Part shown: positions 2,994 to 60,564 of the stretch, one piece after another
How the letters are laid out: the number at the start of each line of letters is the position of its first letter
Numbering within the stretch: position 1 is the first letter of the stretch
Source: Olivibacter sp. XZL3
GTDB lineage: Bacteria; Bacteroidota; Bacteroidia; Sphingobacteriales; Sphingobacteriaceae
Assembly (NCBI RefSeq): GCF_004368405.1
Contig: NZ_SBJH01000067.1
Coordinates: 1-64,000 of the forward strand
Reading direction: 5' to 3'
DNA: 64,000 nt
Program-made: the position numbers and the translations under genes
The notes under the pieces: generated by a model
Databases searched by the model: none
What the model saw: only the letters and a program-made list of their open reading frames with translations
Told to the model about the DNA's origin: nothing

Positions 2994-3102
2994 AGTAATA
3001 CAAATGTTGAGATAATCCGCCGAAAAGGTTGTATGAGAAGCGCCTTATTTTGTATGAATTCCGCCATAGTAAGCGTAAAGCACCTAATAGTAAGCTGATG
3101 TA

Positions 3103-3121
3103 TTTTGTAATTATTCTGAAT
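3103..3121. promoter_or_regulatory. Candidate iron/heme operator box 2 (hmuTUV promoter)
   Basis: The 19-mer TTTTGTAATTATTCTGAAT ends 43 nt before the hmuT start and matches the box at 6967-6985 at 15 of 19 positions. It contains a local palindrome TTATTC-T-GAATAA (3111-3123). It lies in the divergent region shared with the receptor gene, about 110 nt from box 1. Confidence 0.5.
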
Positions 3122-3164
3122 AAGCTTTGTTTTGTAAGAAAAGTTCTCTGGAATAAGAATATCT

Positions 3165-4001
3165 ATGAAGCACCTACTTTTTATAACATGGTTAATTTGG
3201 GCGAACATAAGCTATTGTCAATCTCGTCCAAAAAGAATAATAACACTGAGCGGAGCATTAACAGAAACAGTAGATGCTTTAGGCTTTGGACCGAACATTG
3301 TAGCAACAGACGTCACCAGCACTTACCCTGCCTATGTGAAGCAGTTACCGAAAGTAAGCCGCAATCGATCAATCTCTATCGAAGGTCTATTGTCATTTAC
3401 GCCAGATTTGATACTCGCGCCAACCGGACATGTCGCCAAAGAAATACAGCATCAATTAAAGGCTGCAGGAATACCTCTGATTATTTTGAACCAACACTAT
3501 AGTTCACAAGGCGCAACTGAATTTATTAAAGCCGTGGCAAATGCGCTCGGAGTACCCGACAAGGGAACGATATTAGCTAAAAAAACGGAGGAACGGCTTC
3601 AGCAGGCGATAGCACAAGTAAAAGCCTCTAAACAGGTAAAGAAAAAGGTGCTATTTATATATGCTAGAGGTACTGGTGCCATGAGTGTAGCCGGTAAAGC
3701 GAGCAGCATAGATGCCATTATTAAACTGGCGGGAGCTGAAAACGCTATTCAGGAATTTGCCGACTTCAAGCCCTATACAACTGAAGCCATGGTAAAAGCC
3801 AACCCCGATGTTATATTGATGTTTGATTTTGGTTTAAGCAGTCTCGGCGGAAAAGCCTCTGTGTTGAAATTGCCTGGCATAAAGCTAACCAAAGCGGGGA
3901 AAAACGAACGGATTGTTGATATGGACGGCCAACTTCTGACTAACTTTAGTGTCCGCCTACCGGAGGCCATTTTAGCGCTTCACAAGGAACTAATAAAGTG
4001 A
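3165..4001 (+). CDS. hmuT: Periplasmic heme-binding protein of the HmuTUV ABC importer
   Basis: The 278-residue protein has an N-terminal signal peptide (about residues 1-19, ending Y-C-Q) and the two-lobe helical-backbone fold of metal-chelate binding proteins. It opens with R-I-I-T-L-S-G-A-L-T-E-T-V-D-A-L-G and continues with P-D-L-I-L-A-P, L-F-I-Y-A-R-G-T-G-A-M-S-V-A-G and E-A-M-V-K-A-N-P-D-V-I-L. The last two are typical of HmuT/HutB heme binders, which bind heme in the periplasm and dock on the permease. It is the first gene of a three-gene operon, 73 nt before hmuU. No lipobox is evident, so it is probably soluble. Confidence 0.88.
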   Translation: MKHLLFITWLIWANISYCQSRPKRIITLSGALTETVDALGFGPNIVATDVTSTYPAYVKQLPKVSRNRSISIEGLLSFTPDLILAPTGHVAKEIQHQLKAAGIPLIILNQHYSSQGATEFIKAVANALGVPDKGTILAKKTEERLQQAIAQVKASKQVKKKVLFIYARGTGAMSVAGKASSIDAIIKLAGAENAIQEFADFKPYTTEAMVKANPDVILMFDFGLSSLGGKASVLKLPGIKLTKAGKNERIVDMDGQLLTNFSVRLPEAILALHKELIK

Positions 4002-4074
4002 TAACAACCTACATAAGAGGTCACCTGCTTACGGTACGAGGCGACATTGCATTTTAATAACAAAATCAATTCGA

Positions 4075-5112
4075 ATGAAGAAATTTTTTCTATACTGTTT
4101 AATGATAAGCGGCTTGGCGATCGTCATTTTCTTTTCGCTGACCTGGGGTGCAATCAAGATCCCATTGCACGACGTGATTTCCATTCTCGCAAAATCCATC
4201 GGTTGTTTCAACGGCGTGGTGGACAGCACTTATGAAGGGGTTATTTATATAATAAGATTTCCACGCCTACTGCTAGGATTACTTGTGGGAGCAGCATTAG
4301 GCATTTCGGGAGCTGCTATTCAAGGGATTTTTCGTAACCCGCTCGCCGAACCCAGTCTCATTGGTATCTCTGCAGGGGCTTCTTTAATGGCCGTTATTGT
4401 GATAACACTGGAAGCGAGTATACTTGTAGGTTTGAGCGACTTATTTGGCTATTATCTACTTGCATTTAGCGCCTTTGCTGGAGCAGGTTTTGTAGCGTTT
4501 ATAGTCTACAGCGTAGCGAGAATCAATGGCAGCGCTAATGTGGCCACTATGCTATTGGCAGGAATAGCAATAAACGCTTTTGCAGGCGCATTGACAGGGC
4601 TTATGACCTATTTAGCGAACGAACAGCAACTGCGTACTATTACTTTTTGGATGTTGGGCAGTTTAGGTGGCGCCACCTGGCAAACAGTATGGACCGTCGC
4701 TCCTTTTATTCTTGTCCCCTTAATGCTGTTACCCCTGTTAGCAAAGTCGCTGAATGCCTTCGCGTTGGGCGAAGCACAGGCGAGCATGCTTGGTATACAG
4801 CCTAATAAAGTGAAGCTGCAGGTAGTTGTATTGGCCACAATGGCTGTCGGCGCTTCCGTTGCCGTGTCTGGAATCATCGGTTTTGTCGGTTTGCTCGTGC
4901 CTCATATTATTCGGCTGATAGGCGGAGTAGATCACAAGTTTGTGTTACCTGCATCCGCATTGCTAGGCGCGCTTACCCTCGCATTGGCGGATATGCTCGC
5001 GCGTAACCTTGTCGCTCCTATCGAACTACCAATAGGTGTTATTACCGCGCTGTTGGGAGCCCCCGTTTTTTTGTACATCCTTCTTAAAGAAAAGAAAAAA
5101 GTTCTCCACTAA
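4075..5112 (+). CDS. hmuU: Heme ABC transporter permease (FecCD family)
   Basis: This 345-residue inner-membrane protein carries about nine to ten hydrophobic segments and the FecCD signatures R-F-P-R-L-L-L-G-L-L-V-G-A-A-L-G, G-I-F-R-N-P-L-A-E-P and G-F-V-G-L-L-V-P-H-I-I-R. The last includes the ATPase-coupling region. Length fits the family (about 330-350). It sits between the binding protein and ATPase genes; only 13 nt separate it from hmuV. Heme specificity follows from the flanking hmuT and receptor genes. Confidence 0.9.
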   Translation: MKKFFLYCLMISGLAIVIFFSLTWGAIKIPLHDVISILAKSIGCFNGVVDSTYEGVIYIIRFPRLLLGLLVGAALGISGAAIQGIFRNPLAEPSLIGISAGASLMAVIVITLEASILVGLSDLFGYYLLAFSAFAGAGFVAFIVYSVARINGSANVATMLLAGIAINAFAGALTGLMTYLANEQQLRTITFWMLGSLGGATWQTVWTVAPFILVPLMLLPLLAKSLNAFALGEAQASMLGIQPNKVKLQVVVLATMAVGASVAVSGIIGFVGLLVPHIIRLIGGVDHKFVLPASALLGALTLALADMLARNLVAPIELPIGVITALLGAPVFLYILLKEKKKVLH

Positions 5113-5125
5113 AATATAAATCAGT

Positions 5126-5971
5126 ATGCTTACCGCCATTGCTATTAATTACAAAATCGGAAAACACTGCTTGCTTCGCGACATAAGCTTTCAAATCCGA
5201 CCAGGAGAATTGTTGGCCGTTTTAGGGGCTAATGGTGCAGGTAAATCTACGTTGATCAATGTGCTGAGCGGAGAGAAACAACCGAGTTCTGGGGCCGTAT
5301 TGCTTTTTGATAGAGACTTGAAGAAATATACGTCACAGGAGCTATCAAAGAAAAGAAGCATTCTTCAGCAACATAATAGCCTACATATCAGCTTTTCCGT
5401 CAAAGAAATACTGCTAATGGGTAGATATCCTCATTTTAGATATCGCCCCAATAAAAGCGACTTAATCGCAATAGCGGAGGCAATGGAAATTTGTGATGTT
5501 GGGCACCTTGCCGAGCGCTCCTACCTGTCTCTTTCGGGAGGCGAGCAACAAAGGGTTCAGTATGCCCGAGTCTTATGCCAGATATGGGATCAACCACAAA
5601 GTCTATTGTTGTTGGACGAACCCGTTGCTGCGTTGGACCCTCAATACCAGCAACAGACAATTGCTATTGCGAAAGCTTTTAGTCAACGCGGCTTTATGGT
5701 AATCGCTGTATTGCATGAAATTAATTTAGCATCCCAATATGCAGATCGCATCCTCATGTTGAAAGGTGGCAGGAAATGGCTTGATGGCAGCCCGGCAGAA
5801 GTGCTGACCCCAGCTCATATATATTCAATTTATAATGCCGAGGTTGACGTAATTATCAATAAGCAAAATTTGAAACCGATCGTTATTCCGAAGCAGACAA
5901 ATCTTGATATCAGCAATTTTAATTCCTTATTACCCTCGGTCGCATTCAGCGGCGTGCAGGTGGCTACTTAA
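5126..5971 (+). CDS. hmuV: Heme ABC transporter ATP-binding protein
   Basis: This cytoplasmic ATPase powers heme import through HmuU. It shows Walker A G-A-N-G-A-G-K-S-T (near residue 34), the ABC signature L-S-G-G-E-Q-Q-R-V-Q-Y-A-R-V-L, and Walker B L-L-L-L-D-E-P-V-A-A-L-D. A His follows in the switch region (A-V-L-H-E-I-N-L-A). At 281 residues it is slightly longer than classical HmuV (about 260) owing to a C-terminal tail. Its 3' end overlaps the convergent AraC gene by 8 nt. It ends the hmuTUV operon. Confidence 0.92.
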   Translation: MLTAIAINYKIGKHCLLRDISFQIRPGELLAVLGANGAGKSTLINVLSGEKQPSSGAVLLFDRDLKKYTSQELSKKRSILQQHNSLHISFSVKEILLMGRYPHFRYRPNKSDLIAIAEAMEICDVGHLAERSYLSLSGGEQQRVQYARVLCQIWDQPQSLLLLDEPVAALDPQYQQQTIAIAKAFSQRGFMVIAVLHEINLASQYADRILMLKGGRKWLDGSPAEVLTPAHIYSIYNAEVDVIINKQNLKPIVIPKQTNLDISNFNSLLPSVAFSGVQVAT

Positions 5972-55725: not shown

Positions 55726-56088
55726 TCATGAAGCATCTAACAATTCGACAACCTTCCGTTCCATCAAACTTAAATCAAACGGTTTCGAAATGAAGGCACT
55801 GATCTCCTTCCTTTGTTGCAGATCATCGTTCCGCATATGAGCAGACATGATCACGATCGGTTTATTTTTAGCTAATAGGTTATTTGAAATATCCATAGCA
55901 AGTTCCAATCCGTTTCCGTCCGGAAGATTAATGTCGAGCAAGAATAAATGTGGTATAACCGTCAGCATAGCCTCTTTAAAGCTTTTTATGTTTGCGAAAG
56001 TTTTTACTTCTGCATGTTCCGATAGAAAAATAGATAATATGTCCCGTATATCCTCTTCATCTTCAAGAATATAAACTAACTTTCTCAT
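55726..56088 (-). CDS. Single-domain response regulator (CheY-like)
   Basis: A 120-residue receiver domain: V-Y-I-L-E-D-E-E-D (acidic pocket), phosphoacceptor Asp in L-L-D-I-N-L-P-D-G-N-G (about residue 53), I-V-I-M-S-A-H and I-S-K-P-F-D. No output domain. It likely acts in a phosphorelay or by protein contact. It is divergent from the NarL-type regulator gene across a 295-nt region with operator-like repeats. Confidence 0.9.
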   Translation of the reverse strand: MRKLVYILEDEEDIRDILSIFLSEHAEVKTFANIKSFKEAMLTVIPHLFLLDINLPDGNGLELAMDISNNLLAKNKPIVIMSAHMRNDDLQQRKEISAFISKPFDLSLMERKVVELLDAS

Positions 56089-56383: not shown

Positions 56384-57010
56384 ATGGAATGTAATATTGG
56401 AATTCTAGACGATCAGCGCCTATTTCTTCACGCAATTTCCCTACTTATTCAGCAGTTTGAAGATTTTAACGTTGTAATCGCCGTAGAAAACAGTTTCGAC
56501 TTATATAGTAAGCTAAAGTCGTCGCCTTCACTTCCCGACATTCTTTTGATCGATGTGGTACAGCCGACAATAGACGTTGCTTCACTGGTGAAAGAAGTCA
56601 AAAACAGCTACCCTGACATCAAGCTCGTTGCATTATCCGCACATGAAGATAGCGACAAAGTGATCAAAATGGTGAAGGCCGGATGCTGTGCCTATCTTTC
56701 TAAAATGATGGCCGCAAACGAGCTGAAAGAAGCATTAGAATCTATAAATTCGCTCGGATACTATAATAACCATTTAACCAGTTTATCCTATCACCATATG
56801 TCAACTGCTGAAATCGTATTAACCGACCGGGAAAGAGAATTTTTAAATCTTGCTGCAAGCGATTTTAATTATCAGGAGATCGCCGGTAAAATGTTCCTTT
56901 CTGTCAAAACGATTGATGGCTATCGCGCCAGCCTTTTTGAAAAATTTAATGTAAAGAGCAGAGTCGGACTTATTTTAGAGGCTATCAGACGGAACTACCT
57001 AGAAGTGTGA
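56384..57010 (+). CDS. NarL/LuxR-type response regulator
   Basis: A 208-residue regulator. Receiver (1-120): I-G-I-L-D-D-Q-R-L, phosphoacceptor Asp in L-L-I-D-V-V, and Y-L-S-K near residue 104. C-terminal LuxR HTH (about 145-205): L-T-D-R-E-R-E-F-L-N-L, Y-Q-E-I-A-G-K-M-F-L-S-V-K-T-I-D-G-Y-R. It could be the partner of the nearby kinase or of the HisKA_3-type kinase at 12920, which belongs to the class that usually pairs with NarL regulators. Confidence 0.92.
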   Translation: MECNIGILDDQRLFLHAISLLIQQFEDFNVVIAVENSFDLYSKLKSSPSLPDILLIDVVQPTIDVASLVKEVKNSYPDIKLVALSAHEDSDKVIKMVKAGCCAYLSKMMAANELKEALESINSLGYYNNHLTSLSYHHMSTAEIVLTDREREFLNLAASDFNYQEIAGKMFLSVKTIDGYRASLFEKFNVKSRVGLILEAIRRNYLEV

Positions 57011-57028: not shown

Positions 57029-57451
57029 TTATTTGCTTTTCTTTCGCACGAAGCCATCCAAATAATAGGCTTCTTCGGCCTCACCACAAAAACAATTTTG
57101 TTGATAATAAAAGAGTTTACTAAATCCGTTTACGATGTTGGACGTATAGATCGCTTTGATATGCTTAGCGACGATCTCTTCCTCCGAAGACTTATACAGG
57201 TCCCTTGCCGCCTGTTTGGGAAAATCAGCATATGTTTCATCGTCAAAAAACACATAGGTTACCTGTACTGCGCCAAACATATACAGGTCTTTCTTTCTCC
57301 GACAATATCGAACGATTTCCGCCTTTTTTAAAGCCTGAACAACTTTAAATAAAAGCACGACGTACACTTTAAAATCTAAGGTCTCAATCCTTTTCCTAAG
57401 AAAGATAATCGGTTCCTCGCTTTCCTTGTTTGTTTGAACGACCGTTTCCAA
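57029..57451 (-). CDS. Hypothetical 140-residue protein
   Basis: A soluble protein with no signal. Parts include F-L-R-K-R-I-E-T-L-D-F-K-V-Y, V-R-Y-C-R-R-K-K-D-L-Y-M-F-G and N-C-F-C-G-E-A-E-E-A-Y-Y-L-D-G-F at the end. I recognise no family. It lies between the NarL regulator and the kinase on the opposite strand, so it may be part of the signalling patch only by position. Confidence 0.55.
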   Translation of the reverse strand: METVVQTNKESEEPIIFLRKRIETLDFKVYVVLLFKVVQALKKAEIVRYCRRKKDLYMFGAVQVTYVFFDDETYADFPKQAARDLYKSSEEEIVAKHIKAIYTSNIVNGFSKLFYYQQNCFCGEAEEAYYLDGFVRKKSK

Positions 57452-57673: not shown

Positions 57674-58702
57674 ATGGAACACGCTGCAGAACTACTTTTA
57701 TCGCTTGTCAGGGAAGACAATCGTTATTATTTCATATTCGATATAGCCCAAAAACGTTTTTTGTTTGTCAATCCTGCGTTCGAATCTTTTTTCCATGTGC
57801 GTTCCGGCGAAACAGAAGGCGATTCGCTTATTAAAATGATCCATCCGGACGATGTGGACTATCTCAAAAGTCATGTTCAGTCTGCACAGCCTGGACTTTT
57901 CCTAACTGATATCGAGTTTAGAATCATACATTTCGACAAAAAAGAATATATCTTTTCCATGAGCGCACGTCTCGAAAAGAAGCACGACAAAAAGTTGATT
58001 TCAGGATACTTGAGTGACATCACAAGGCAAAAAGAAAATGCCCTCTATTTGAATGAATTCAACAACAGGAAAAATTCAATTCTGAATATATTAGCTCATG
58101 ATTTAGGTGGCCCACTCGGAAACATTAAAAACCTTTCGCACCTTTTAAAACAACGGTTTAAATCGCTGGATGAGGAAAATCTGCAAAAAATCATTACGTC
58201 TATCGAAAGAAATACGAATATGGGCATTCAGATCATAAACGATTTTCTCAACCGTGAGTTTATTGAAGCAGTAGGTGTTCAGCTTCTAAAAACCCGTGTC
58301 AACCTGATCGAAAAGATGGAAAGCATCATCATGGAGTACCAGCAATCGCAAAGTCAGACGGGTAAAGCCTTCTTTTTGGAAACAAACAGCACTAAAATAT
58401 ATGTAGAGATTGATGAAAACAAGTTTTTTCAGGCCTTGACTAATCTCATCTCGAACGCTTTGAAATTCACGCCCGACGGCGGTAGTATACGTGTCGAGGT
58501 ATTGGAATTGGCAGAAACGGTGTTGATTGCTATTAAAGACGACGGCATTGGCATTCCTCAAAAGTTCCAAAAGCAATTATTCGACAAATTCTCCGGAGCC
58601 GGTAGACCCGGATTGAAGGGAGAGCGCTCTACAGGACTCGGAATGTCTATTATCAAAACCATTATAGATTGGCACCAAGGAAAAATTTGGTTTGATAGCT
58701 AA
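57674..58702 (+). CDS. PAS sensor histidine kinase, 3' end cut by an in-frame stop
   Basis: A 342-residue cytoplasmic kinase: PAS domain (about 15-120), HisKA with His142 in L-A-H-D-L-G-G-P-L-G, HATPase with N-L-I-S-N-A-L-K-F-T-P, D-D-G-I-G-I-P and G-L-G-M-S-I-I-K. The frame stops at TAA (58700-58702) right after G-K-I-W-F-D-S. In the same frame 15 more family-like codons follow, E-N-E-G-T-S-F-Y-I-E-L-A-K-S-N, to a second TAA at 58748-58750. So the last beta strand with the G-T-S-F motif is lost. Either a nonsense mutation or a sequencing error is likely. Confidence 0.88.
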   Translation: MEHAAELLLSLVREDNRYYFIFDIAQKRFLFVNPAFESFFHVRSGETEGDSLIKMIHPDDVDYLKSHVQSAQPGLFLTDIEFRIIHFDKKEYIFSMSARLEKKHDKKLISGYLSDITRQKENALYLNEFNNRKNSILNILAHDLGGPLGNIKNLSHLLKQRFKSLDEENLQKIITSIERNTNMGIQIINDFLNREFIEAVGVQLLKTRVNLIEKMESIIMEYQQSQSQTGKAFFLETNSTKIYVEIDENKFFQALTNLISNALKFTPDGGSIRVEVLELAETVLIAIKDDGIGIPQKFQKQLFDKFSGAGRPGLKGERSTGLGMSIIKTIIDWHQGKIWFDS

Positions 58703-58758
58703 GAAAATGAGGGCACCAGCTTTTATATCGAACTGGCAAAAAGTAACTAAGGAGCGCC

Positions 58759-60564
58759 TCAACTCCTAGATTCCTCAGCTTCTCCCTTCAATACCCAGAC
58801 CGCCCATGGCGGCAGATTCACTTCCGTTTCTTGCGGATAAATTGGCAAGGGCGGATCATGGTAAACGACCTCTTTGAAATTCGTAAAACCAGCAGGTAAT
58901 TTATAACTAACTCCCTCATCAGAAAAGTTAAAAAGGCACCACACACAGTTCTTTCCGGCCTCGTCAGCCCGTTGCAGCGCGAGAAGCTTTCCAAATACGC
59001 TCGTTTGGAGGTCTTTTTTATTGAAATTGCAAAAAACAGGATCAGAAAAACGGAGTTTAATTATCTTTTTATACCAGTTCAATATCAATCGATTCCTTCC
59101 AACTTGCCGTGTATTCCAGTTCAATTTGGACCTTTCGAAGACCTTCGGGTCTTTCGGATCCGGAATATCCTCATCGTCCATAAATGCACTGAACTCCTTC
59201 TTTCTCCCAGTCCTAACAGCTTCTATAAGTTCAGGATCACTGTGGTCAATAAAATAAGAAAAGGGATTCTCCTCGGCGTACTCCTCTCCCATAAACAACA
59301 TCGGAATATAAGGTGATAACAGAATAGCAGAAGCCGCCATTTTTAGCTTCTCCGTATCCAGAACAGTTGAAAGACGGTCGCCCTGCCCCTTATTTCCGAC
59401 CTGATCGTGGTTTTGATTAAACACAACGAATCTATTACCCGGTATACCGGCAGACGAGGCACCGTATTTTTTCTTTCTCGCCACTACGTATTCACCTGTG
59501 TGCACAAAACCCTCTTTATATGCCTTGGCCAGCTGCTCTATTTTGCCAAAATCTTCATAAAACTTTTTCCCTGCTGGAAAGATCAGTGTATACAAGGCGT
59601 GATGAAAATCGTCTAGCCATTGCCCATCGAAACCAAAGCCGCCTGCGTCTTTGCTGACGACCCGTGGGTGATTATAGTCGCTCTCAGCAATCATGTAGAG
59701 CCGACGCCCTAATGTGCGCTCCAAGTCCCTCACCCGATTACAAGCTACTTCCCAAAAAGGAATCGACCCATTATCAAACATGGCATGGACGGCGTCAACG
59801 CGTAATCCGTCTACATGATAGTGAATAAACCATTCTGCAATATTTTCCAGAAAATAATCACGTACGCCATCGCTCCACTCGCCATCTAAATTCATAGCTT
59901 GTCCCCAGGGCGTTTTGTACTGATCGGTAAAATACGGACCATACTCTTTGAAATAGTTTCCTTCAGGGCCAAGATGATTGTACACGACATCCACAAAAAC
60001 GGCCAAACCTTTTCTATGGCAATTATTTACCAACTCCTTCAGTGCATCCGGATCACCGTATGAATTCTGGACGGCAAAGGGGTAAACACCATCATAACCC
60101 CAATTGCGGACACCAGGAAATTGGCATATAGGCATAAGCTGAATCGCTGTGACACCTAGCGCTTTTAGGTCATCCAGCTTTGATAAGATGCCTTGGAACG
60201 TCCCTTCCTTTGAGAAGGTTCCCACATGCAGTTCATATAAAAGCATTTGATCGAAGGCTATTCCACGCCAGTTTAGATCATCCCATACGAACCTCTGGTG
60301 ATCGATCACTTGAGACGGCCCGTGAACGCCCTCTGGCTGATAACGAGATGCTGGATCGGGATAGTCCTTCTCGCCGTCTGGTTGATAGTAATAGCGGAGG
60401 TTATCCCATATGCTATTAAGCTCAAAAATAAAATAGCCGTCATGATTTCGCCTCATGTCGTACTTGATATCTTTGGGTGACACAATATGCAGCACCATTC
60501 TCTCTTTGGTTGGTGCCCATACTTTAAAAATGGTATGATTATCCTTATAAATTGCTCCAATCAT
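58759..60564 (-). CDS. treZ: Malto-oligosyltrehalose trehalohydrolase
   Basis: A 601-residue GH13 enzyme that releases trehalose from maltooligosyltrehalose. An N-terminal beta domain (1-95, F-K-V-W-A-P-T-K-E-R) is followed by the barrel with D-V-V-Y-N-H-L-G-P-E-G-N-Y, nucleophile Asp in G-L-R-V-D-A-V-H, acid Glu in M-I-A-E-S-D-Y-N and N-H-D-Q-V-G-N-K-G-Q-G. G-E-E-Y-A-E-E-N-P-F fits TreZ rather than GlgB. The partner treY is not in the window. Overlaps the phosphoesterase gene by 4 nt. Confidence 0.92.
   Translation of the reverse strand: MIGAIYKDNHTIFKVWAPTKERMVLHIVSPKDIKYDMRRNHDGYFIFELNSIWDNLRYYYQPDGEKDYPDPASRYQPEGVHGPSQVIDHQRFVWDDLNWRGIAFDQMLLYELHVGTFSKEGTFQGILSKLDDLKALGVTAIQLMPICQFPGVRNWGYDGVYPFAVQNSYGDPDALKELVNNCHRKGLAVFVDVVYNHLGPEGNYFKEYGPYFTDQYKTPWGQAMNLDGEWSDGVRDYFLENIAEWFIHYHVDGLRVDAVHAMFDNGSIPFWEVACNRVRDLERTLGRRLYMIAESDYNHPRVVSKDAGGFGFDGQWLDDFHHALYTLIFPAGKKFYEDFGKIEQLAKAYKEGFVHTGEYVVARKKKYGASSAGIPGNRFVVFNQNHDQVGNKGQGDRLSTVLDTEKLKMAASAILLSPYIPMLFMGEEYAEENPFSYFIDHSDPELIEAVRTGRKKEFSAFMDDEDIPDPKDPKVFERSKLNWNTRQVGRNRLILNWYKKIIKLRFSDPVFCNFNKKDLQTSVFGKLLALQRADEAGKNCVWCLFNFSDEGVSYKLPAGFTNFKEVVYHDPPLPIYPQETEVNLPPWAVWVLKGEAEESRS

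Follow-up and report, generated by a model that had tools for sequence, protein, structure and literature searches.

A probable recent nonsense mutation removing the end of a PAS histidine kinase in Olivibacter sp. XZL3, within a kinase family broken repeatedly in Sphingobacteriaceae

A histidine kinase gene located in the 64,000-nucleotide stretch of Olivibacter sp. XZL3 DNA analysed here (contig NZ_SBJH01000067.1, below referred to as the window) terminates at a stop codon behind which the same frame continues with what resembles the end of a kinase, thus raising the question whether the protein naturally ends at this point, was recently cut by mutation, is switched between two states or appears interrupted by virtue of an erroneous base call. 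The open reading frame encodes 342 aa (57674..58702, plus strand) and comprises PAS, HisKA and HATPase_c domains. HisKA matches PF00512 with 30.7 bits, above the cut-off, and carries the H-box HDLGGP with His142, while the N, G1, F and G2 boxes of HATPase_c are represented by NLISNALKF, DDGIGIP, LFDKF and GLGM. Translation from the ATG at 57674 proceeds through DWHQGKIWFDS to the premature TAA at 58700..58702, then through a preserved but untranslated tail of 15 codons, ENEGTSFYIELAKSN (58703..58747), to the ancestral TAA at 58748..58750, all on the plus strand, exactly as the earlier reading of the sequence had placed them. The loss to the kinase amounts to 16 residues if the stop position itself is counted with the 15 codons beyond it. 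As the gene stands, the PF02518 match scores 74.3 bits and ends at model position 94 of 111, and if the stop is read through, the score rises to 89.5 bits and the match extends to position 108. A complete HATPase_c fold including the last beta-strand, GTxFxIxLP, is not found in the kinase, this strand being encoded beyond the stop.

Matches to the kinase at E <= 1e-50 are present in 98 of 401 sampled Sphingobacteriaceae genomes, and 66 distinct intact relatives were aligned for comparison of the stop column and the tail. None of them ends at this column, which is occupied by Glu in 28 and by Lys in 24, much as the sequence-only reading had expected, and a natural C-terminus at 58700-58702, which the same reading had named as the finding that would speak against it, is thereby rejected. 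The last strand is kept in all 66. Scored against the profile of these relatives, residues 344-356 of the tail obtain 34.3 bits, a value that ranks 26 of 66 and falls in the middle of the 4-45 bits spanned by the relatives themselves when each is left out in turn; among 10,886 random stop-free 39-mers taken from the window, one reached 34.3 bits, a score equal to that of the tail itself. Since the sequence behind the stop scores like the tails of intact relatives, the stop, as judged from the alignment, is recent on the scale of family divergence or is an error. Its absence from intact relatives together with conservation of the sequence past it is what is expected of a recent nonsense pseudogene. 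Of the origins proposed beforehand, a recent nonsense mutation and a sequencing error both agree with the state of the tail, which is better preserved than an old lesion would allow, and phase variation is considered and set aside below. Those flags of "1 TAA/TAG" in the genome search that were inspected turned out to be the regular stop codons of the relatives, situated where these kinases usually end, and no premature stop was found in any other HATPase_c match of the same genome, where a second apparently stop-bearing HATPase gene was rejected, its TAG being the natural terminator.

The explanation we regard as likely is that a recent nonsense mutation ended the gene 16 residues early and left the kinase inactive or nearly so. 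A single such mutation would have cut off the protein before its ancestral end. The PAS sensor is retained, as are the histidine that accepts the phosphate and all four boxes (N, G1, F, G2), and the part lost would be GTSFYIEL, the final beta-strand of the ATP-binding Bergerat fold, which is expected to pair with the strand GKIWFDS and to supply core hydrophobic residues (FYIEL). The Bergerat fold is expected to be destabilised when its last strand is gone, and the truncated domain would probably fold poorly or aggregate. Solved kinases align through the last strand, and AlphaFold predicts a strand at residues 347-355 with low confidence (mean pLDDT 46, only two sequences), the model having been used for the order of strands only. 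Given the loss of this strand, the previously suggested impairment of the kinase is probable, and we infer both the loss of autokinase activity and the correctness of the TAA base call.

Should that call be a sequencing or assembly error, the real gene would have a sense codon and the kinase would be intact. This we consider unlikely, even though the lesion is confined to a single site, the tail is well preserved and the assembly is a draft of 122 contigs, because the site lies inside a 310-kb contig, homopolymers at the stop do not exceed five, tandem repeats are absent from it and the neighbouring genes are free of lesions. These are a gene for a 140-aa protein of a small family, diverging from the kinase gene (57029..57451, minus strand), and a convergent gene of the GH13 (alpha-amylase) family (58759..60564, minus strand) with a syntenic copy 72-73% identical in Olivibacter jilunii. 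Genes around the kinase are full length and collinear with those of O. jilunii, so that the assembly is not of generally poor quality here. Against an error also stand the defect of the syntenic O. jilunii kinase and the published observation that errors account for a low proportion of candidate pseudogenes (PMC522871).

The locus of O. jilunii is inverted but otherwise syntenic, with the GH13 gene, the kinase and the 140-aa gene in this order and with a receiver-only regulator, a short-chain dehydrogenase and a glycosyltransferase further out. Between the GH13 gene and the 140-aa gene, which is again the divergent neighbour, lies a PAS-HisKA remnant (L134:8630-9223, minus strand), an ortholog 56% identical to the window kinase over residues 1-195, which stops after residue 197 and leaves about 75 bases between its stop and the GH13 gene. 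Thus the two copies share the locus and differ in the extent of the loss, the entire ATPase domain being absent from the remnant and the last strand only from the window kinase. The PAS-HisKA part is constrained (pN 0.26 vs pS 0.75, quoted in this form with synonymous sites saturated), and in a relative-rate test the remnant is not accelerated, evolving no faster than the window copy, so some function of this part may remain. Three other genomes of the genus lack a kinase match at E <= 1e-30 and contain GH13 genes that are only distantly related. Putative genes for an EamA-type transporter and two ATP-grasp-like proteins, named by eye, occupy L134:10009-14044 of O. jilunii between the 140-aa gene and the receiver-only regulator and are absent from the window locus.

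The sequence-only reading further held that the regulator genes of the kinase remain. Two response regulators near the kinase are indeed intact, one of LuxR type with Response_reg and GerE domains (56384..57010, plus strand) and one consisting of a receiver only (55726..56088, minus strand; 87% identical in O. jilunii), and both are candidate partners only. The LuxR-type regulator belongs to a paralogous set of the genus and has no counterpart at the O. jilunii locus, where about 5 kb of other genes separate the receiver-only regulator from the kinase remnant, so the pairing of either with the kinase is hypothetical and the possessive in that claim is weakly founded. A similar regulator within 1.5 kb accompanies few of the relatives' kinases. 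The 140-aa protein has no Pfam match, and its family is confined among 301 family genomes to two copies each in the window genome and O. jilunii. Three of these four lie beside a kinase gene or remnant, and the fourth (L131) has none listed within 1.5 kb; besides the window gene, the four include one at L132:1444-1890.

Elsewhere in Sphingobacteriaceae the kinase is broken as well, frameshifted copies being found in three genomes (G291, G061 and G179). The frameshift in G291 (L094:2174-3240, minus strand) splits the PAS-HisKA part from the ATPase part, and the sister copy in G336 (L053), sharing 91% nucleotide identity over 2.8 kb, is intact, so that recent loss is more clearly documented by this pair than by the window kinase. 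The tree places the G291 and G061 copies each beside a different intact relative, and those of G179 and O. jilunii in other clades, so these breakages are, from their placement, best read as independent events. Together with the loss of the ATPase domain in O. jilunii, the three frameshifts indicate that loss of the kinase is tolerated, and a family broken so repeatedly would be dispensable in many lineages, in line with an ordinary loss in the window. A G030 copy with TAG was not counted as a lesion, because the copy reaches the end of its contig and a second contig that overlaps it reads a sense codon in place of the TAG; this gene is split over two overlapping contig ends (L041:1-40 and L042:1-72) that differ by the stop codon, probably as an assembly-end artefact.

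Truncation need not abolish every activity, and the shortened protein may retain weak kinase or phosphatase activity, or may act as a PAS-HisKA pseudokinase capable of dimerising, a role that the O. jilunii form lacking the ATPase domain might also have. Every catalytic box is present with the last strand alone missing, O. jilunii retains an intact PAS-HisKA frame at an unaccelerated rate, and a 198-aa relative with PAS and an H-D motif exists in G075. Nevertheless, we give this explanation little credence, since the last strand is invariably kept by the relatives, the codons beyond the stop show no drift as yet, leaving little time for a new function, and a late truncation of RocA leads to aggregation (PMC6635533). 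Still more speculative is the proposal that loss of the ATPase end is tolerated, or perhaps selected, in the Olivibacter lineage, an enzyme being converted to a PAS-HisKA module for dimerisation or phosphotransfer, with the conversion complete in O. jilunii and just begun here; we think it improbable. The G075 protein (L141:2355-2951, plus strand), related to the PAS-HisKA half of the kinase, contains an HDIAG motif, is devoid of an ATPase domain and is possibly a stand-alone phosphotransfer or dimerisation module; its gene lies directly upstream of those for heme oxygenase (2995-3567) and a phytochrome kinase (3587-5500).

A programmed event, either phase variation or stop-codon readthrough supplying some full-length kinase, would agree with a tail conserved as if still translated, but it is very improbable, given that no tandem repeat able to switch the lesion was found at the kinase stop, no other relative has a stop at the same position and the only inverted repeat is a coincidence of coding. 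The arms of this 12-nt repeat (58612-58623 and 58781-58792) both encode Leu-Lys-Gly-Glu in two different genes, the segment between them is at present oriented as in relatives, and the G2 box would be lost on inversion. Such repeats are rare, occurring in 2 of 318 stretches of the window, and an invertible segment was rejected on the coding coincidence, not on frequency. The phase-variable state envisaged by the earlier reading is therefore abandoned.

With the nonsense mutation as the preferred explanation, the locus presents an ordinary recent truncation, and the modest addition made by it is the repeated loss of a kinase family in Sphingobacteriaceae. It offers a clean illustration of a kinase shortly after its inactivation, in a family broken several times independently, and a small test case for the shrinkage of histidine-kinase repertoires; no general view is changed, and in annotation the gene should be called truncated. 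Repeated loss of this kind fits the gene decay long described for proteins with PF02518, which is among the top prokaryotic pseudogene families (PMC522871). The window kinase resembles those HATPase_c pseudogenes in that one member of a large family of paralogs is disabled in frame and relatives elsewhere are intact, but the survey required more than one disablement, whereas here there is a single lesion near the C-terminus (PMC522871). Another parallel is RocA of group A Streptococcus serotype M3, a HATPase-containing protein cut at residue 416 of 451; the truncated form aggregates and, when expressed at its normal level, has no function (PMC6635533). Both are late C-terminal truncations inside a HATPase-like domain, that of RocA being fixed in natural isolates, yet RocA is a membrane accessory protein which lost about 35 residues by a frameshift (PMC6635533), whereas the window kinase is a PAS kinase without a listed transmembrane part that lost 16 residues to a nonsense stop.
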